A stretch of DNA of 64,000 nucleotides, from the NCBI RefSeq assembly GCF_000765905.2, contig NZ_JRPL02000002.1:1-64000 (forward strand). The letters run 5' to 3'. The notes beneath the pieces are model-generated. The model was not told where the DNA came from, did no database searches, and worked only from the letters and a program-made list of their open reading frames with translations. The DNA is from Helicobacter trogontum (GTDB taxonomy: Bacteria > Campylobacterota > Campylobacteria > Campylobacterales > Helicobacteraceae). This document shows, one piece after another, positions 42,253 to 64,000 of the stretch (its first letter is position 1; the number at the start of each line of letters is the position of its first letter). Both the position numbers and the translations under genes were made by a program.

Positions 42253-42315
42253 AATTCCATGCAATTTTTTTAATGCCGTAAAATAGGCAGTTTCGCACAT
42301 ATAAAATTAGGCATT

Positions 42316-42390: not shown

Positions 42391-43623
42391 ATGGTGTTTT
42401 CTCGGCATCACATACACAATATTGCTAAAAAGAATTTTATCATTGATTTTGAGTTACTGTCGGTTTTAAACATTACAAAAACTGAAGCAATCATATTGGA
42501 CCATATATCTTATTTTAATAAGGTGTATGGTGCCATATCGTTGAATATTAGTCAGTTTGTAGAGATTTTACAAATAAGCAGACAACATTTTTATCGTTGC
42601 ATTAAAAAGCTTATATATAAGAATCTGATCTCTAAAGATAACAAGAATATCGAGGTAACAAAGTTTTATGAAGAAACTAAGGTTGCGTGTTTTAAAAACG
42701 CACATAATAAGAAAGTAAAACAAACCGGAAAGCAAAGCAAATATGCAATAAAAAATGACTGCAATGAGCATGAAAATTTAATTGACAATCTGTCTCATAA
42801 TGTTACAGAAGTGTCGCAAAATGTTACACTTCCTATCCTATATAATACAAATAAAAACTTTATGTGTGTATTAAACACACATAAAGAAAATATAAAAGAT
42901 TGCAAAAGCAATCATCAACAAACACAACAAGCAAGAAAGCTTGTCGGTTTGTTGAATTGGTGTAATACTAAGCAAATAAAAAAAGGCTTGTATGAAAATA
43001 TCTTAAAAGAAACAGAAGTCAATCAACTTCGACTGCTTCTGCAAAACAAACAGGATGAACAAATAGAGCACGATACACAAAGACTGCAACAATCACTCAA
43101 AGAGAAAATGAATGCAGATGAATTGGAAGCTTTAAGAGACTTTAGTGTGTTACTTGCAAAAACAGGAATGTTTCTACTCCCACAAAACCAAAAAACTTTT
43201 GTTTGCCATATAGAAAAACTTATAGAACAAAAAAAGAATTTAAAAAACATGATAGCTTATAGCAAAGAGAATAATTGCTTATGGATTTGTGATGATGAAA
43301 ATGATGATATGGGTATGCAGTGCTTAAAGCAAATGTGGGAATGCGTACAGTTATCGTTAAAAGAAAAAGAGCAAGAAACCATAACACACGTATCAACAAA
43401 GCATAGGCATTTATTGTTGCAATTTATGAATTATAGACAAGAGAAAGGAAGAGCTATGAATGAGTTTAGTTTAAAAAGGCTATGCCTTGTATTCAATGAG
43501 CTAGAGCAAAAGGGAATAAATCTCATAGACTGTGTAAATCAAAGTATTGAGCGTGGTTATAATTGGGTATTTAAGCCCACACATAATGCTAGATTTTTCA
43601 ACAGAAAATTAAAAAATAAGTAG
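42391..43623 (+). CDS. Replication-initiation or helicase-loader-like protein with winged helix
   Basis: A 410-aa protein, first gene of the element. Residues 30-82 form a winged helix-turn-helix (ILDHISYFNKVYGAISLNISQFVEI, then SRQHFYRCIKKLIYKNLI), common in Rep and phage replication proteins. The last 70 residues (MNYRQEKGRAMNEFSLKRL and SIERGYNWVF) resemble the C-terminal domain of phage/plasmid DnaD-like replication proteins. The centre is coiled-coil-like. With SSB and a DnaB-like helicase following, a role in element replication is likely. The exact family is uncertain. Confidence 0.55.
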   Translation: MVFSRHHIHNIAKKNFIIDFELLSVLNITKTEAIILDHISYFNKVYGAISLNISQFVEILQISRQHFYRCIKKLIYKNLISKDNKNIEVTKFYEETKVACFKNAHNKKVKQTGKQSKYAIKNDCNEHENLIDNLSHNVTEVSQNVTLPILYNTNKNFMCVLNTHKENIKDCKSNHQQTQQARKLVGLLNWCNTKQIKKGLYENILKETEVNQLRLLLQNKQDEQIEHDTQRLQQSLKEKMNADELEALRDFSVLLAKTGMFLLPQNQKTFVCHIEKLIEQKKNLKNMIAYSKENNCLWICDDENDDMGMQCLKQMWECVQLSLKEKEQETITHVSTKHRHLLLQFMNYRQEKGRAMNEFSLKRLCLVFNELEQKGINLIDCVNQSIERGYNWVFKPTHNARFFNRKLKNK

Positions 43624-44525: not shown

Positions 44526-45638
44526 ATGAAAACATACAAACATGCAAAAGTTAGAAACAATAGTCAATTTATACAGATAGAGGCTTGTATAAATAATGTG
44601 CGTTATAGATTTAGCACAAAACTTCTTGTAACAAAAGAAAACATGGATTATGTAGAATTCAATTATAAAGAGCTAATAGAGCAATATAAAAATCAAAAGA
44701 ATATTGAAGCAAACAAAGATGATCCATATTTACTTTCAAATTATGGTTATCAAGTTTTAGAACTGGAAAAAGCAACATGCAAGGAATCAACATATATACG
44801 CTATTACAATGTGTTTAAAAAGCACATTGTATCTGCTATTGGATCTATGCTAATAAGCGATTTTAGTCCAAAGATTATGAAAGAAGTATTTGTAAATAAA
44901 TTTTCTCATTTAAGCTTTGCAAACAGAAACATTGGAATGACTGTATTAAAAAAGATTTTTAATCATGCAATCACTGATGAGATATACACAAAAGCAAATC
45001 CTATGATTTGCATTAAACGCACCAAAAATCATCAAATCACATACAGAAACAAACCTTTTGAATTACATGAAGTTATGCAAATTATTAATTACATCGATAA
45101 AGATGAATTAATGGATGATCGCATGAACATCTATTTCAAAATAGCGTTATTCACAGGTATGAGAGTAAATGAGATATTAGCCTTAAAATATGAAGATATA
45201 GACTTAGAACGAAAGATCATTCATGTTTATAAAACATTAAGCAATGCTAAAATCACAACAACAAAGACCCAAAGTGGCACACGAGAGGTAGAAATTATTG
45301 ACGCTTTGCAACCTTCTCTTAAAGAAATAAAACAAACAGAAGAGATAGGTTATATTTTTGTAAATCGCAATAACAAATTTATGTCAAAACAACATGTTGC
45401 AAAACAATTCAAAGAAATCTTAACAAAACTACATTTAGAAAACAGAACACTATATTCAACAAGACACACATTTGCAAGTCTGTCTTTAAGCTATGGAGAG
45501 GATTTGTTATGGATAGCCAACATGTTAGGACATAAAGACGTATCAACAACCTGCAAAAGTTATGCAAAATATATTAAAACAAACAAAAAACGAGCCACAT
45601 TCTTTAATACAAACAACAAACACAGAAAGGTGGGATAA
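44526..45638 (+). CDS. Tyrosine recombinase/integrase
   Basis: A 370-aa site-specific recombinase with an N-terminal SAM-like core-binding domain (about 60-165) and a catalytic domain. Active-site residues are Arg213 (FTGMRVNEIL), Lys247 (TKTQSGTREV), Arg313 in LYSTRHTFAS, His336 (MLGHKDVSTT) and the nucleophile Tyr346. The first His of the usual H-x-x-R is Tyr310, a change common in phage-type integrases. It probably integrates and excises this element. Its stop overlaps the ATG of the next small gene. Confidence 0.93.
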   Translation: MKTYKHAKVRNNSQFIQIEACINNVRYRFSTKLLVTKENMDYVEFNYKELIEQYKNQKNIEANKDDPYLLSNYGYQVLELEKATCKESTYIRYYNVFKKHIVSAIGSMLISDFSPKIMKEVFVNKFSHLSFANRNIGMTVLKKIFNHAITDEIYTKANPMICIKRTKNHQITYRNKPFELHEVMQIINYIDKDELMDDRMNIYFKIALFTGMRVNEILALKYEDIDLERKIIHVYKTLSNAKITTTKTQSGTREVEIIDALQPSLKEIKQTEEIGYIFVNRNNKFMSKQHVAKQFKEILTKLHLENRTLYSTRHTFASLSLSYGEDLLWIANMLGHKDVSTTCKSYAKYIKTNKKRATFFNTNNKHRKVG

Positions 45639-45799: not shown

Positions 45800-46229
45800 T
45801 GATATTGTAAAGAAATTAATGAAAGAGCCTAAAACATATTCATTTCACTTAAGATATGAAAGTAGCATATCTTTGTATTACATAAAATACTTGAGAATGC
45901 AATTTAAGGAAAAGAATACAGGAAAAATAGTAGAAATGGCGATAGACCATCTGTATAAAGAAATACAAGAAAAAGGAAAGGAGTATATAGAAATGAAAGT
46001 CTTAATTGAAAAAGTAAAAATCTATATTGAAAACTCAATACCAAAAGATATAAATAACCATGATAAAGAAAAAATTTTAAATGACTTAAGCTTATTGACA
46101 AACAAAATTGAAAAGCTATATCAGCAACAAAGAGCAAACACTGCAACTAATAAAAATATTAGAAATAAAAGGAAGTATGACAACACGCCAAGCTTGTTTG
46201 AAAACTTAAATACAGCATATAAGCAATAA
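45777..46229 (+). CDS. Hypothetical helical protein
   Basis: A 150-aa, Lys/Glu-rich protein of unknown function. The N-terminal half (SFHLRYESSISLYYIKYLRMQFK, then GKIVEMAIDHLYKEIQ) looks like a ribbon-helix-helix-type or small DNA-binding domain. The C-terminal half is helical. The stop TAA overlaps the ATG of the DnaB-like gene as TAATG, which suggests a functional link to replication. Confidence 0.55.
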   Translation: MKKHENFDDIVKKLMKEPKTYSFHLRYESSISLYYIKYLRMQFKEKNTGKIVEMAIDHLYKEIQEKGKEYIEMKVLIEKVKIYIENSIPKDINNHDKEKILNDLSLLTNKIEKLYQQQRANTATNKNIRNKRKYDNTPSLFENLNTAYKQ

Positions 46230-47587
46230 TGCAAAGAAAAATAGGGAGAAGAAATAATATCCAAATGAAAACAACATTTTATAGTCAAGAGTTATATGGA
46301 AATATAGCAAATAAAATAGAAACAAGTATTATTACATCAGTGATAATGTCCCCAGAACAACATGTAACAAGTTTTCTGTCAAAAATTCCAAAATATTGGT
46401 TTACAGAAGAATATTATCCATATTATGAAGCTATACAAAAAGCCCATGAAAATAAAAAACTTGATACGACATATATTTATTCATTATTAATTAATGAATA
46501 TAGACAACAAGAAGAGAAAGTTATGCTAATATTGGCAAATACGCATATTATTGTTACAATCGATGATTATATTCCCCTTTTAGAACAAAAATACCTTCTA
46601 AGACAACAAGCTAAACTTAGCAAGAAGCTCCAATATGCTACTGATGAATATAAAGTGCTTAATATTGAGCAAGAAATACAAAATCATAAACTTTTATATA
46701 GAGAGCAATACTCGATTAAAACATTTGCAGAATGGGATAAATTTTACAAAGAAAACCACATTAATATCCAGAAATATGAATTAGGCATACCATTTTTAGA
46801 TGAAACTTTAGATAAGGGTATAGAATTGGGGCAACTAGTCTTAATTAGTGGAGAATTTGAAGCAGGTAAAACAAGTCTTGTATTGCAAATATTAGAAAAT
46901 CTAAGCAAACACCATAAAACATGTTTATTTAGCTTTGAATTTCCTATACATACACACATACTAAAAAGACATAAATTCTTTAAAAAAATGATAGAAACAA
47001 GCAGATTAACACAAGAAAACGTGGAAAACATAAAAAATAACATGGTTATTATAGATGAGGGAACAGAGATAAGCGAAATAGAAAACAGGATTGTATCGCT
47101 TTTTATTTCCGGTATAAAATTTTTTGCGATAGATTCTCAAATGTGTATTTTTAATGAAAATTTTGAAGGATTGGGTGAGAAAGAGGAATCATCAAAATTT
47201 GAAATATTGCAACGACTGGCAAAAAAACATAATATTGTTATTATTCTTATAGTGCAAACAAGCAAATTAGATAATACAAGTCCTATGGGAAGCAAAAAAG
47301 GTGCTTATTTTAGCTCAATAATAATACGCATAGAAAATGTTATTGATGAGAAAACTAAAGAAATAAATCATAGTAGAAAAAGAATTGTATTTCAAAAAAA
47401 TAAGCAAACAGGTAAAAATGATATACACAATGTGTATTTTGATAAAGAAACAAGATTATTTTATAGCAATGATATTCCTAATAAAAAATATATAATCCAA
47501 CCCACTCAAACCGAAACCATAACACAACAAGAATTTGATCAATTAATAAAAAACACAAAAAGAGTAGAAATACCATTTAACTTTTAA
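46229..47587 (+). CDS. DnaB-like replicative helicase/RecA-fold ATPase
   Basis: A 452-aa protein with the architecture of DnaB. The N-terminal helical domain (about 20-120; SVIMSPEQHVTSFLSKIPKYWF) is followed by a RecA-fold core with Walker A GEFEAGKTS (about residue 208), a FSFEF segment, and a FFAIDSQMCIF Walker B region. The sensor-like IVQTSKLDN and GSKKGAYFSSIIIRIEN complete the core. The Walker A differs from the canonical GRPSMGKT of DnaB. It likely unwinds the element during replication or transfer. Confidence 0.75.
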   Translation: MQRKIGRRNNIQMKTTFYSQELYGNIANKIETSIITSVIMSPEQHVTSFLSKIPKYWFTEEYYPYYEAIQKAHENKKLDTTYIYSLLINEYRQQEEKVMLILANTHIIVTIDDYIPLLEQKYLLRQQAKLSKKLQYATDEYKVLNIEQEIQNHKLLYREQYSIKTFAEWDKFYKENHINIQKYELGIPFLDETLDKGIELGQLVLISGEFEAGKTSLVLQILENLSKHHKTCLFSFEFPIHTHILKRHKFFKKMIETSRLTQENVENIKNNMVIIDEGTEISEIENRIVSLFISGIKFFAIDSQMCIFNENFEGLGEKEESSKFEILQRLAKKHNIVIILIVQTSKLDNTSPMGSKKGAYFSSIIIRIENVIDEKTKEINHSRKRIVFQKNKQTGKNDIHNVYFDKETRLFYSNDIPNKKYIIQPTQTETITQQEFDQLIKNTKRVEIPFNF

Positions 47588-51591: not shown

Positions 51592-52278
51592 ATGGTTATT
51601 GCAATAGCAAATGAAAAAGGTGGTAGTGGAAAAACTACTTTAAGTGTTAATTTAGCTATTAAATTAGCACAAGAGGGTGATGATATATTGCTTATGGATT
51701 CAGATCCACAAAGAAGCACAGAAGTATTTGTAGATATAAGAACAAATGCAGAGCATGAATTTTTGTTTAATTCATTGCAAAGAACAGGTTATGGATTAAC
51801 AAAGGAGATTAAAACTTTAGAGAAAAAATATGATTGCATTATTATTGATACAGGTGGTAGAGACTCTAAAGAAATGAGACAAGCCTTAGTTGTTGCAGAT
51901 ATTATTATCATTCCAACAATACCAAGTCAATATGATGTTGCAGTGCTTGATAAAATGGTAACAATATGCGATGAAATTGGTGTTATGAATCCACATGCAA
52001 AAATATTGATATTGATTAGTAAGGCAAGTCCCAATCCATTTTTGATAAGTAAAGTCAAAGACTTGCAAACCTATATAAATGAGAAAGAATTGGTTAATTT
52101 AAAACTTATGGATAGTGTTATATATGAAAGGGAGGCATACAAAAATGCAACAGGTTTAGGTTTGGGCATTACAGAATATTGCAATGAGAATGATAAGGCA
52201 TATAGTGATTTTATTAAGTTTTATGATGAATTACTATGTGAGATTAAAGCGATGAGTGTAAAAGAACAGATAGGCTAA
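51592..52278 (+). CDS. parA: ParA-family partition ATPase
   Basis: A 228-aa ATPase of the small ParA/Soj/MinD-like type. The deviant Walker A KGGSGKTT lies at residues 9-16, LLMDSDPQRS gives switch I, and CIIIDTGGRD the Walker B. Such proteins segregate plasmids or stabilise integrative elements by positioning DNA on the nucleoid. No obvious parB follows; the small proteins downstream or an unlinked one may serve. AAGGA site before the ATG. Confidence 0.92.
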   Translation: MVIAIANEKGGSGKTTLSVNLAIKLAQEGDDILLMDSDPQRSTEVFVDIRTNAEHEFLFNSLQRTGYGLTKEIKTLEKKYDCIIIDTGGRDSKEMRQALVVADIIIIPTIPSQYDVAVLDKMVTICDEIGVMNPHAKILILISKASPNPFLISKVKDLQTYINEKELVNLKLMDSVIYEREAYKNATGLGLGITEYCNENDKAYSDFIKFYDELLCEIKAMSVKEQIG

Positions 52279-52316: not shown

Positions 52317-52547
52317 ATGACTTTAGTAATTAGTAATGTAAAACAAGAGTTTGTAGAGAAATTTAAGGATTTAGCAAGTAAGATTCACGCAGATGTTGAA
52401 ATATGTGAGAGTGAGAGAGAAATACCCAATGCTCAAACAATGGAAGCCATAAGATTATGTGGTAATAGCGAATCAACAGAGTATGCAAATTTTGGAGAAT
52501 TTTGGCAAGAAATGGAAAGGGAAGTGAATGCTGAAATTAAAAATTGA
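52317..52547 (+). CDS. RelB/DinJ-like antitoxin
   Basis: A 76-aa acidic protein encoded directly upstream of, and overlapping, a YafQ-like toxin gene. The C-terminal half (NFGEFWQEMEREVNAEIKN) is the kind of acidic helix that wraps the toxin, and the N-terminal part would bind DNA. The family assignment rests mainly on gene arrangement. A very strong AAAGGAGAG site suggests the antitoxin is made in excess. Confidence 0.7.
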   Translation: MTLVISNVKQEFVEKFKDLASKIHADVEICESEREIPNAQTMEAIRLCGNSESTEYANFGEFWQEMEREVNAEIKN

Positions 52548-52797
52548 AAATAGCTTTAAAAAGGACATAAAGACTGTATACAAGCAAGGGTTAAAACAAG
52601 GTGAGATAGAGCCAATCATACAGAAGCTACTATCACAAGAATTGTTAGAATCAAAATATAAAGACCATAAGTTACAAGGCGATTTAAAAGATTTTAGAGA
52701 ATGTCATATAAAGCCTGATTTATTGTTGATATATCAAGTAAAACAAGATAGTTTGCATTTAGTAAGAATAGGCAGTCATAATCATCTATTTAAATAA
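52528..52797 (+). CDS. YafQ-family mRNA interferase toxin
   Basis: An 89-aa RelE/ParE-superfamily toxin of the YafQ type, which cuts mRNA on the ribosome. The hallmark end is complete: KDHKLQGDLKDFRECHIKPD, then LLLIYQV, and RIGSHNHLFK with the C-terminal catalytic His and Phe. It overlaps the antitoxin by 20 nt. It probably acts in addiction, maintaining the element. Confidence 0.9.
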   Translation: MLKLKIENSFKKDIKTVYKQGLKQGEIEPIIQKLLSQELLESKYKDHKLQGDLKDFRECHIKPDLLLIYQVKQDSLHLVRIGSHNHLFK

Positions 52798-52811: not shown

Positions 52812-53108
52812 ATGGGTATTAAAGAAATTAATCAGCAAAAACAAAACACATTTAAAAGTGTAGAGTTAGAAAGAAAAACAAAAAGGGCAAATGATATAGA
52901 AACATTTATTGAAAATGCAGAGGGTGAAACTTCAAAGAAAAGATATGGTGCTCCATTAAAGGATAAAGAGAAGAAAAGCACAGAAAGACATAGTTTTTAT
53001 TGCACACCAGCAGAAAGCAAGAAGATAAGAGAAATGGCAGAACAATATAATATGAAAATCGCAGAATTTATTAAATTTAAAGTATTTGATAAGTATAAAA
53101 ATATGTGA
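52812..53108 (+). CDS. Small basic protein, possible MobC/RHH-type accessory
   Basis: A 98-aa Lys-rich protein. The C-terminal 45 residues (STERHSFYCTPAESKKIREMAEQY and MKIAEFIKFKVFDKY, shown in parts) have the strand-helix-helix look of ribbon-helix-helix relaxosome proteins such as MobC, where a mobilisation gene encodes the nick-site partner. It starts 14 nt after the toxin. It could equally be a plasmid stability protein. Confidence 0.5.
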   Translation: MGIKEINQQKQNTFKSVELERKTKRANDIETFIENAEGETSKKRYGAPLKDKEKKSTERHSFYCTPAESKKIREMAEQYNMKIAEFIKFKVFDKYKNM

Positions 53109-53423: not shown

Positions 53424-54134
53424 ATGACAAATAAATTTCTTATATTGGGTAAAAGATTGGGTGCAGTGGCTTTAGGTGCAACACTATTGTGTGTTAGTGT
53501 GCAAGGGGCTACACTTAAAGAAATAGAGGCACAAAAAGAGGCAGAGGAAAAAGCACGATCACGATCGGTTTCAACACTTAAAGAAAATGAAGTAATCATC
53601 GCTTATGATGATAATGTCATTGCAGAACTAGCACATGATATACCAAAAGATAAAAAGAAAATCTTAAAACAAGCACTATATTATTCAAATGTTGCAAGTG
53701 AAAAATATTATAAGAAGGAGGCATTAGGACATGTATTTGAAACTAATCATGTTACATCAGGATTATGCAACCCAGAATATTTAATAGAGCCTTATAGAAA
53801 TATAGAAGTAACAAAACTTGATAGAAAAAGACTTTTAAGCGGTAAACATCAAGCAGGGAGTAGTTTTGATGCAACAAAATATGGTTTTATAGATGATTGT
53901 ATTCTTGCAATTACATGGGCAGCAGCAAGAGAGTATGAACAAACACATAACAAACAATATTATTGGGAAGGAAAAGGGTTTAGTCAAACAAGACTGAATG
54001 AAAAGAAAGCCTTGCAAAAATGGTTAGATGGTGTGTTTTATCCATATATTAATAGTTTAGATGTGACAGATTATGATTATATTAAAAGATATTTAATAGA
54101 CATTAAAAAAGCAATGGTTATTAAGAATAAATAA
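53424..54134 (+). CDS. Secreted protein of unknown function (236 aa)
   Basis: A 236-aa protein with a signal peptide (GKRLGAVALGATLLCVSVQG, cleaved near residue 29). A charged coiled-coil start (KEIEAQKEAEEKARSRS) precedes a globular part with a Cys pair (GLCNPEYL, DDCILAITWAA) and a Trp/Tyr-rich segment (NKQYYWEGKGFSQTRL). I do not recognise it. Position beside the relaxase suggests a periplasmic or surface accessory of transfer. It ends 4 bp before the convergent relaxase stop. Confidence 0.6.
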   Translation: MTNKFLILGKRLGAVALGATLLCVSVQGATLKEIEAQKEAEEKARSRSVSTLKENEVIIAYDDNVIAELAHDIPKDKKKILKQALYYSNVASEKYYKKEALGHVFETNHVTSGLCNPEYLIEPYRNIEVTKLDRKRLLSGKHQAGSSFDATKYGFIDDCILAITWAAAREYEQTHNKQYYWEGKGFSQTRLNEKKALQKWLDGVFYPYINSLDVTDYDYIKRYLIDIKKAMVIKNK

Positions 54135-54138
54135 TAGC

Positions 54139-56070
54139 CTATCTCTCGACCCCTTTCTTATTAGAGGCATTTTGTTTTACATTTGTCTCTTGTTTTTGTT
54201 TTGCTTTTTCTAGCAATCGCAAATGCACTTTATAATCTACTATGGCATTCTTATCGTATTTTTCTAAATATTCATGCAAAGTATTATTTTTATATTTATC
54301 ATGTAATGATTTACGCATATAATCTATATTTCTTATCTTTCTATCAATTAAATACCATTCAATAAAATCATTGTAGAATTGCTTCTGTTCTAAGCATTCT
54401 CCTTGTTGTTTAGTTTCATTTTCACGCTCTATGAAAAAGTTATTGATTTTTGTTTGCAGTAGCGTAAAATCACTGAATTGTTGCTCTTTTTGGTGCATTG
54501 TATTCTCTACTTTAGAATCTAAATAATTTGTAAGATTCTGAAACTCTTTGAAGTAATACTGCAAAGTCTTTATGTGATATTTATTAAGACTTGCTTCATC
54601 TTTAAAAATACTTTCATAATGAAGTATTTTATCATCGATGATTTTATCAATTACAATAGTATTTGTTTGCAATGTGTTTTTATAGCTATCAAGTAATCTT
54701 GTATCAAGCATATTATTTTTATCTATGCTCTGTAATACTTGCAGTTTCTTTATCATGTCTTTTTGTGCAAAAATTAATGATTTACTTGTTGATTTTACAC
54801 CTAAATGTTGCAACAAGGCATTATCTAATTCATTTTGTAAGTTAAGAGATTGTGTAATATCTGATGTATTTTTTCTGATTTCATTTTGTATATCATTTGC
54901 TATACAAAGTTGTTCTTTTGTGGCATATCTTTTGTGTTTCATAACAAAATCTAAATACGCTTTTTTTGCGATCACATTTGTATAATCATCATTAATATCT
55001 TTTGCAAAATTATTTCTATGATTCATAAAATCAAATCCTAGATTATTTATAGCCTTGTTGAGTTTATAAATTTCTTGTTTGTAAGTCTTTTGATGTTTGT
55101 ATGCAACAGTTATCGCCACTCTTAATTCTCTTAGAGCTTCTAATATATTTTTATATTGTTGTCTTGTTGTAAAATCAAGTCTCTTATGCAGAAACTTTTC
55201 TTTTTCATAGAGGGTTAGAGCTTTTAATTGTTTGATGTATTCTTGTTTTTTAGCTACATATTCTTTTATCTCATTTTTTGTATTATTTAGTTTGTGTTGC
55301 AACATTTCTTTTTTATTGGCAATAATATCTTTGTCTTTATTTATTTGAGCGATAGTATCCATATAGTGATTTCTATTTTCTCTTTGCTTTGTCCTATCGA
55401 TTTGTTCTAAGATATTTGTTTTTTCAAATCTATAAGCATTGTGATAATTTAAATTTCCATGATAATTAAGTGAATCTGCAAAATCATCTCGCATTTCATT
55501 AAAAAAGTTTTTAACACTATTTTTATCTTTGAAGTGAAGTTTTTTATGTGTGAGCATACTGTTTTTATTAATTACTACATGAATATGTGGATTATTTTGA
55601 TGCACATGCAAAACTTTTACATATTTATATTCATAAAAATGTTTTTGCAATAAATCATTAACACTTTGTTGCAACGCATAAATATTTTGAGAATTGACTT
55701 CTTCTCTCATGGAAAAACATAAATGCCATGCTTCTTTAGAGTTAGCTTTGGAGCTAAAATCTTTTTGCCAATCCTTTAATACCTCACTTGCATTAACCCT
55801 CATTCCATTTTCATCAATAGCATAATCATAAGGACCATGTCGTATAATATAATTAATTGCATTATAAGTACCTCTTGCAGTTAAATTTGAAAGTAATTTG
55901 ACAACAGCCTGTTTAGAAAATCTTTTATCTTTTTTTAATAACGATAGGTTTGCAGGTTTAACTATTTTTTTTGGAGGTTCTTTATAAAATCTTTTTTGGA
56001 TTCTAAGCTCCTCATCACTAAAAAAATCAGCTAATACTTTTTCCACATGTGCATAAGGTTGTCGCGGCAT
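54139..56070 (-). CDS. Relaxase, MOB-P type
   Basis: A 643-aa protein from the ATG at 56070 (AAAGGTG site; an upstream TTG at 56106 is less likely). The N-terminal 240 residues form the relaxase domain: a candidate catalytic Tyr69 in GTYNAINYIIRHG, H116 in AWHLCFSM, and the metal-binding HIHVVIN at 162-168. The rest is a long helical, coiled-coil region with no helicase motif. Relaxases nick oriT and pilot the DNA strand to the secretion channel. It is transcribed away from the virB operon with a candidate oriT in between. Confidence 0.88.
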   Translation of the reverse strand: MPRQPYAHVEKVLADFFSDEELRIQKRFYKEPPKKIVKPANLSLLKKDKRFSKQAVVKLLSNLTARGTYNAINYIIRHGPYDYAIDENGMRVNASEVLKDWQKDFSSKANSKEAWHLCFSMREEVNSQNIYALQQSVNDLLQKHFYEYKYVKVLHVHQNNPHIHVVINKNSMLTHKKLHFKDKNSVKNFFNEMRDDFADSLNYHGNLNYHNAYRFEKTNILEQIDRTKQRENRNHYMDTIAQINKDKDIIANKKEMLQHKLNNTKNEIKEYVAKKQEYIKQLKALTLYEKEKFLHKRLDFTTRQQYKNILEALRELRVAITVAYKHQKTYKQEIYKLNKAINNLGFDFMNHRNNFAKDINDDYTNVIAKKAYLDFVMKHKRYATKEQLCIANDIQNEIRKNTSDITQSLNLQNELDNALLQHLGVKSTSKSLIFAQKDMIKKLQVLQSIDKNNMLDTRLLDSYKNTLQTNTIVIDKIIDDKILHYESIFKDEASLNKYHIKTLQYYFKEFQNLTNYLDSKVENTMHQKEQQFSDFTLLQTKINNFFIERENETKQQGECLEQKQFYNDFIEWYLIDRKIRNIDYMRKSLHDKYKNNTLHEYLEKYDKNAIVDYKVHLRLLEKAKQKQETNVKQNASNKKGVER

Positions 56071-56194: not shown

Positions 56195-56255
56195 GCAGGA
56201 TAACCCTTTTGTCCGCACAAAAATACGCTCAAATATCGTAGATAGCGATATTTGA
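56195..56255 (-). other. Candidate origin of transfer (oriT)
   Basis: On the minus strand TTATCCTGC (56203-56195) fits the nick consensus YATCCTG|Y of RP4/Ti-type (MOB-P) systems; the cut would fall between 56196 and 56195. Some 25 nt on its 5' side is a 10-bp inverted repeat with a 7-nt loop (56229-56238 and 56246-56255), as in known oriTs. The site lies about 125 bp upstream of the relaxase gene and ahead of the divergent virB operon. Confidence 0.6.
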
Positions 56256-56303
56256 AACAAAAACATAGTTTTTTGTAATAATCTCAAAAAAAGTAGAAAC
56301 TTA

Positions 56304-56466: not shown

Positions 56467-56823
56467 ATGTTTTCAAAACATTTTCTCAAAATGCAGAGTG
56501 CAAGACAATATATCTGCAAGAGAATAAATAAACTTTATTTCTCTTTTCTTTGCTTTATATTTTACTCTCCTTTTGCATTCGCAGATTTTGCAAGTCTTGG
56601 AAATCAAGTAAAAGGAGAATTAAAATCAACAGCAAGCACAGTTATGAGTGTGCTTAATACCGTAGTTGCAAGTGTTGGCATTGTGTATGTGTGTATTGTT
56701 GGATTTATTTTTATCTTTAAGCCAGATACATTCAAAGAAAACTCAAAAGTTTTAATCGGTGCTTTAGTTGCTCTTGGAGCATTATATGGCATTACAAATT
56801 TAGGACAAAGTGCATTCATATAG
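56467..56823 (+). CDS. virB2: VirB2-like pilin
   Basis: A 118-aa precursor from the ATG at 56467 (AAAGGA site). A long leader ends SPFAFA before DFASLGNQVKG. The mature part has two hydrophobic segments (VASVGIVYVCIVGFIFIF and VLIGALVALGALYGI) joined by a short polar loop, the classical VirB2/TrbC pilin layout. It would polymerise into the conjugative pilus. It is the first gene of the operon, followed at once by virB3- and virB4-like genes. Confidence 0.85.
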   Translation: MFSKHFLKMQSARQYICKRINKLYFSFLCFIFYSPFAFADFASLGNQVKGELKSTASTVMSVLNTVVASVGIVYVCIVGFIFIFKPDTFKENSKVLIGALVALGALYGITNLGQSAFI

Positions 56824-63788: not shown

Positions 63789-64000
63789 TGTAAATGTAGT
63801 GTTGGCACATAAGTTAGAAATATTAGATAAATATTTAAGACTTGAAGCAAATGAACTAATCTTTACAAGATCATGTGAGTTTTTTGTAGATTATGGTGAT
63901 AGGTGGGAGAGAATTGTAGATGAAAAGCTTGATTATGAATTTTTAACAAGCTTTTTACAACAACTTGCTACACGCAGACACCAACGCTTTAATGAGAAGT
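63781..64000 (+). CDS. virB11: VirB11-type T4SS ATPase, N-terminal part (partial)
   Basis: The frame runs off the right edge after 73 codons. The start SNVNVVLAHKLEILDKYLRL, then NELIFTRSCEFFVDYGDRWE and the helix LTSFLQQLATRRHQ, match the N-terminal domain of VirB11/HP0525-type hexameric ATPases, in which an early E-hydrophobic-strand segment and the R-W region are typical. The Walker motifs would lie beyond the window. Order after virB10 agrees. Confidence 0.8.
   Translation, partial: MSNVNVVLAHKLEILDKYLRLEANELIFTRSCEFFVDYGDRWERIVDEKLDYEFLTSFLQQLATRRHQRFNEK

Follow-up and report, generated by a model that had tools for sequence, protein, structure and literature searches.

A probable tfs4-type origin of transfer between the relaxase and virB2 genes of a Helicobacteraceae integrative and conjugative element

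The gap between the relaxase and virB2 genes of an integrative and conjugative element (ICE) holds, with a probability of about 0.93, the origin of transfer (oriT) of that element, and this origin is of the tfs4 kind. The oriT reading, already proposed in the initial annotation, is supported by conservation of the nick bases across relatives of the relaxase and by the in vitro nicking of the homologous tfs4 site (PMC3772185); sequence, conservation, covariation, strand bias and gene context are established here. The transfer origin is thereby pinned down to a signature, consisting of GKGTTATCCTG/C (the slash marks the nick), a covarying hairpin 8-13 nt 5' of it and a relaxase gene downstream on the same strand, which finds such sites in the searched Helicobacteraceae genomes and in pVir-type Campylobacter and Aliarcobacter plasmids. 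The tfs4-type oriT was known beforehand, and the tripartite layout and the family-wide polarity described below are modest extensions.

In the window, i.e. the whole 64,000-nt stretch of DNA analysed, the minus strand around the site reads 5'-...TTTTGTGCGGACAAAAGGGTTATCCTG/CCCATAAT-3', with GGGTTATCCTGCCC as the stretch spanning the predicted nick (Table 1). The match to the YATCCTG/Y nick consensus reported earlier is present as TTATCCTG/C, that is, TTATCCTGC, on the minus strand at 56203..56195, and includes TATCCTGC at 56202-56195, in which the core ATCCTG lies inside YATCCTGY as in other MOBP origins. The predicted nick falls at 56196/56195 on the minus strand, as expected from RP4, Ti and tfs4. 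Its reported distance of 125 bp from the relaxase ATG (56070) is correct, and so is its placement between divergent genes: as the virB2 ATG is at ~56467, the site lies inside the 396-bp gap between the relaxase gene and the virB operon.

Table 1. Features of the predicted oriT and of the genes discussed with it (coordinates count from the first base of the window).
Feature	Position	Strand	Evidence or description
Nick region GGGTTATCCTG/C	56195..56206	-	Sequence; conservation in relatives; homologous tfs4 core nicked in vitro
IR1, nick-proximal hairpin TTTTGT-GCGG-ACAAAA	56207..56222	-	6-bp arms, 4-nt loop, 11 nt from nick
IR2, 10-bp repeat TCAAATATCG-CTATCTA-CGATATTTGA	56229..56255	-	33 nt from nick
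IR3, ACAAAAA-ACTATG-TTTTTGT	56257..56276	-	61 nt from nick
MOBP-type relaxase, MobA/VirD2-like, 643 aa from ATG	54139..56070	-	Pfam PF03432, E 2.6e-8
virB2 (TrbC/VirB2 pilin), first virB operon gene, trailing side	56467..56823	+	Pfam PF04956, E 6.9e-6, just below cut-off
NikA-like ribbon-helix-helix protein, candidate relaxosome accessory	52812..53108	+	Pfam PF21983, E 1.8e-6
YafQ/ParE-type toxin, leading side, just ahead of NikA-like gene	52528-52797		
ParA/VirC1-like ATPase, candidate equivalent of tfs4 VirC1	51592..52278	+	Pfam VirC1, E 3.3e-7; AAA_31, E 5e-24
Tyrosine integrase	44526..45638	+	Pfam PF00589, E 2.1e-23
Second NikA/MobC-like gene, ahead of virD4	~64814-65182		PF21983, E 4.4e-9

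The short consensus was discarded as evidence on its own, since YATCCTGY occurs at chance frequency (7 copies in the window against 5.6 expected in shuffles, which is not significant). This frequency, together with the T-rich stretch that follows IR2 and gives a terminator-like score on the minus strand, would fit a chance motif in an A+T-rich divergent promoter region whose repeats are operators or a terminator, a reading that we consider very improbable. The extended core GKGTTATCCTGC argues against it, being present in a single copy in the whole 2.45-Mb assembly, at the oriT site, as do the nicking of the homologous tfs4 core in vitro and the conservation, strand bias, position and covariation found across the relaxase family. 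IR2 was rejected as a terminator, because its tail is weak and the gap holds no minus-strand gene upstream of it that would need one, and a sigma-70 promoter at the nick was likewise rejected, promoter-like sites being as many as chance gives. Among the seven YATCCTGY sites of the window, an inverted repeat of at least 6 bp adjoins only that of the oriT, the other six having no such repeat at the right distance. Nine other GTTATCCTGC sites in the genome were also rejected as candidates; none is preceded by GKG (0/9), and their repeats do not exceed 5 bp.

Three inverted repeats lie 5' of the predicted nick. The initial annotation had described a 10-bp repeat about 25 nt on the 5' side, which we confirm as IR2 (perfect arms at 56229-56238 and 56246-56255, separated by 7 nt and ending 25 nt from TTATCCTG), and had overlooked IR1 (56207-56222) and IR3 (56257-56276). 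Its statement that an inverted repeat stands beside the nick is thus correct, but the repeat matching the tfs4 and RP4 position is IR1, not the 10-bp IR2. IR1, a short and A+T-rich repeat of 6 bp, supplies, at a conserved position 11 nt away, the repeat close 5' of the nick that characterizes MOBP origins. Folding of the 85 nt on the 5' side of the nick as single-stranded DNA yields all three hairpins, at -15.1 kcal/mol compared with -5.0 kcal/mol in shuffles (z = -5.2; 0 of 200 shuffles).

To follow the site across the family, relatives were searched with the whole relaxase and with its catalytic domain, their upstream DNA was taken, and H. cinaedi, H. pylori, and Campylobacter and Aliarcobacter plasmids were added to the set. 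Upstream sequence of at least 400 nt was available for 72 distinct homologous relaxase loci; on the relaxase-sense strand, TATCCTGC precedes the gene in 68 of them and is missing from four, while shuffles predict ~0.6 and the antisense strand holds 1. The nick bases had been proposed to stand or fall by their conservation among elements with the same relaxase, and by this measure they stand. The wider TTATCCTGC is kept in 58 of 59 distinct sites, in which the block G(G/T)GTTATCCTG/C (that is, GKGTTATCCTG/C) is almost invariant; these sites span Helicobacteraceae as well as Campylobacter pVir-type and Aliarcobacter plasmids.

In 38 of the 59 sites, against 1.4 in shuffles, a repeat of 6 bp or more ends at a distance of 8-13 nt from the nick, while the flanking intervals are near background, and the same peak recurs in 34 nonredundant sites. 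Moreover, the arms of IR1 covary: compared with arms swapped between sequences, arms taken within a sequence pair in 120 rather than 73.8 of 204 cells (z = 6.3; 0 of 200 swaps), in a geometry of 6-bp arms and a 4-nt loop at 12 nt from the nick that was the best of 120 scanned and lies one base farther from the nick than the window's own IR1. Since pairing within sequences is far above that of the swaps, the hairpin persists as its sequence diverges. A perfect proximal hairpin of 5 bp or more is missing from about 1/3 to 2/5 of the 34 nonredundant relatives. The IR2-type position (30-47 nt) shows weak enrichment, at 30-44 nt, with CC..GG arms in many relatives, and at the IR3-type position (61-80 nt) inverted repeats are enriched at 65-79 nt in the 34 nonredundant relatives. 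IR1 is strongly supported, and IR2 and IR3 as family features moderately so.

These results also bear on which repeat the relaxase would recognize. The oriT could be real with IR2 as the recognition hairpin and IR1 as an incidental repeat, given the greater length and stability of IR2 (-8.0 vs -3.6 kcal/mol), but we give this arrangement little credence, because the enriched and covarying position is that of IR1, that of IR2 is weakly enriched, and the 25-bp repeat published for tfs4, 9 nt from its nick, occupies the place of IR1. IR2 was therefore dropped as the main repeat on position and covariation; IR1 is the probable relaxase recognition hairpin and IR2 a probable accessory-protein site.

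As a control, ~30 GKGTTATCCTGC sites inside genes of relatives were inspected, and none has an IR1 of at least 6 bp, so the combination of core and IR1 is specific. Extra GKGTTATCCTGC sites of relatives were considered as orphan oriTs; nearly all are coding and without IR1 and were rejected, and a few intergenic ones may be such origins. In one relative (L159, G003:C169:19023-19034), an intergenic GGGTTATCCTGC is accompanied by an 8-bp IR1-like hairpin, with no relaxase nearby and with neighbours resembling a type VI secretion cluster; it is possibly an orphan oriT or a chance match.

The closest known system is tfs4 of H. pylori, whose VirD2 was shown in vitro to cleave the oligonucleotide CGGAATTGAAGTGTTATCCTGCACTTTAAA at ATCCTG or immediately past it (Grove et al. 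2013, PMC3772185), leaving the protein joined to the 5' end, and whose oriT has a 25-bp inverted repeat adjoining the nick core (PMC3772185). We recovered this published oriT in the relatives' set (L070-L076, L099) as ACTTCAATTTTTACGGAATTGAAGTGTTATCCTG/CAC, where it precedes the homologous relaxase on the same strand and has 9 nt between repeat and nick; with the same core and layout, the window site is a relative of the experimentally nicked one. ICEHptfs4 (VirD2/Rlx2) shares the core GTTATCCTG/C, a repeat just 5' of it and a relaxase gene immediately downstream on the same strand, and both elements carry a VirC1/ParA-like gene. As in tfs4/TnPZ origins, GTTATCCTGC here immediately precedes a VirD2-like relaxase gene and is read on the sense strand of that gene. 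The host element is nevertheless distinct from tfs4 and belongs to another Helicobacteraceae lineage, and its relaxase is ~35% identical to that of tfs4 where aligned. IR1, 16 bp in total, occupies the same position as the tfs4 repeat but has 6-bp arms and a 4-nt loop instead of 9-10-bp arms and a 5-7-nt loop, and the arm sequences differ. One inverted repeat is reported in the tfs4 paper; here, two more are present farther upstream.

The RP4 oriT (MOBP11) shares the TATCCTG/C core, a repeat 8-11 nt 5' of the nick and the divergent gap. C. jejuni pVir and related plasmids share a homologous relaxase (43-44% in the catalytic domain), the core, its strand and the divergent relaxase/virB position, but pVir is a plasmid rather than an integrated element and has no clear proximal hairpin of at least 5 bp. 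In pVir of C. jejuni 81-176 (L060), 228 nt separate the core from the aligned relaxase domain downstream of it, the virB-like genes run divergently, and the core is a candidate oriT; the literature searched yielded no published oriT for pVir.

The relaxase adjoining the site has, besides the PF03432 domain, the catalytic residues of MOBP enzymes, with Tyr74 in motif I and H155-Q158-P161-H162-x-H164 in motif III, all invariant in the relaxase alignment; solved structures gave no sequence match to it. The neighbouring genes that support the oriT reading are complete, comprising VirB2/4/8/9/10/11, VirD4, NikA/MobC-like proteins and ParA/VirC1. A second, only distantly similar relaxase with a MobA/VirD2 domain lies together with a MobC-like gene on a short contig (5940 bases) of this assembly, which might be a small mobilisable plasmid.

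Nicking and 5' attachment were shown in vitro for the tfs4 homologue (PMC3772185); for the window's element, we infer the exact cut, the catalytic residue, the binding of proteins to each repeat and transfer. The VirD2/MobA-like relaxase would bind IR1 on the minus strand, helped by NikA/MobC-like proteins and perhaps by the VirC1/ParA-like one, cut GGGTTATCCTG/C at 56196/56195, probably via Tyr74, and stay on the new 5' end, at C56195. The VirD4 coupling protein and the VirB secretion system would export the minus strand 5' to 3', such that a 125-nt leader would enter first, followed by the relaxase gene, the ParA/toxin/integrase side, the virB operon and lastly IR3-IR2-IR1, and rejoining at the same core would end transfer.

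Since the relaxase would remain on the 5' end, the minus strand is predicted to exit toward the relaxase gene, and a motif on the relaxase-sense strand implies that this gene leads. This order had been called unusual. The relaxase gene is indeed predicted to enter first, opposite to RP4, in which the relaxase operon traJI trails (PMC7314908), and the RP4-like polarity was not found here; yet the relaxase gene leads in every relative with a sense-strand upstream motif, tfs4 included, so the order is the rule in its relaxase family and not peculiar to this element. Judging from sequence and one in vitro study, the relaxase-first order appears general in the lineage; we found no discussion of it in the tfs4 oriT paper (PMC3772185). 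The annotated-looking leading-side genes past the relaxase, between the ORF at 53424 and position 42391, are plus-strand genes, so the transferred strand would serve as their template, in line with published work in which enriched genes of the leading region were found to be encoded on the transferred strand (PMC11541004). They include the YafQ-type toxin, the NikA-like protein, the ParA/VirC1-like ATPase and an SSB, but an ArdC-like gene and an SSB are present on the trailing side too, and thus direction is not fixed by gene content alone. A tentative and rather doubtful proposal is that a whole lineage of Campylobacterota conjugative elements (ICEs, H. pylori tfs4-type elements and pVir-type plasmids) shares a tripartite oriT with relaxase-first entry, an order that selection would favour for early relaxase synthesis in the recipient, where relaxase made after second-strand synthesis might aid strand re-circularisation or a new round of transfer.

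The host element is an ICE of ~33 kb that runs from ~42.3 kb (42261) to ~75.2 kb (~75224), past the window end at 64,000. It carries genes for an integrase, a DnaB-like protein, ParA, the relaxase, virB2 to virB11 (virB2 being followed by virB4, virB8, virB9 and virB10), a NikA/MobC-like protein, virD4, a topoisomerase and a VirB6-like protein. A real but unused oriT, in an element that no longer transfers, is unlikely: many tfs4 elements are eroded and tfs4 transfer proceeds largely via homologous recombination, but here the relaxase, integrase, virB2, virB4, virB8 to virB11, virB6-like, virD4 and NikA/MobC reading frames are open, and both the core and IR1 are intact. The flanks hold a LamB/YcsF gene and biotin carboxylase/carboxyltransferase genes, and the insertion probably splits a 5-oxoprolinase-type gene cluster. 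A 16-bp inverted repeat, GCAATTTTTTTAATGC at 42261 and its complement GCATTAAAAAAATTGC at 75209, may mark the element ends. Direct repeats across the ends, sought as att sites, stood out no more than chance-like A+T matches would, and in one relative (G007) the empty site gave only a rough alignment. The TnPZ target duplication AAGAATG/CATTCTT is absent from the end regions (41.5-42.5 and 74.0-75.5 kb), and the element is therefore not filed as a TnPZ, the oriT alone being called tfs4-like. That the excised form may replicate is suggested by two ORFs, at 42391-43623 and 46229-47587, of which one weakly resembles phage replication protein O (scoring under the Pfam threshold) and the other encodes a DnaB-like helicase.
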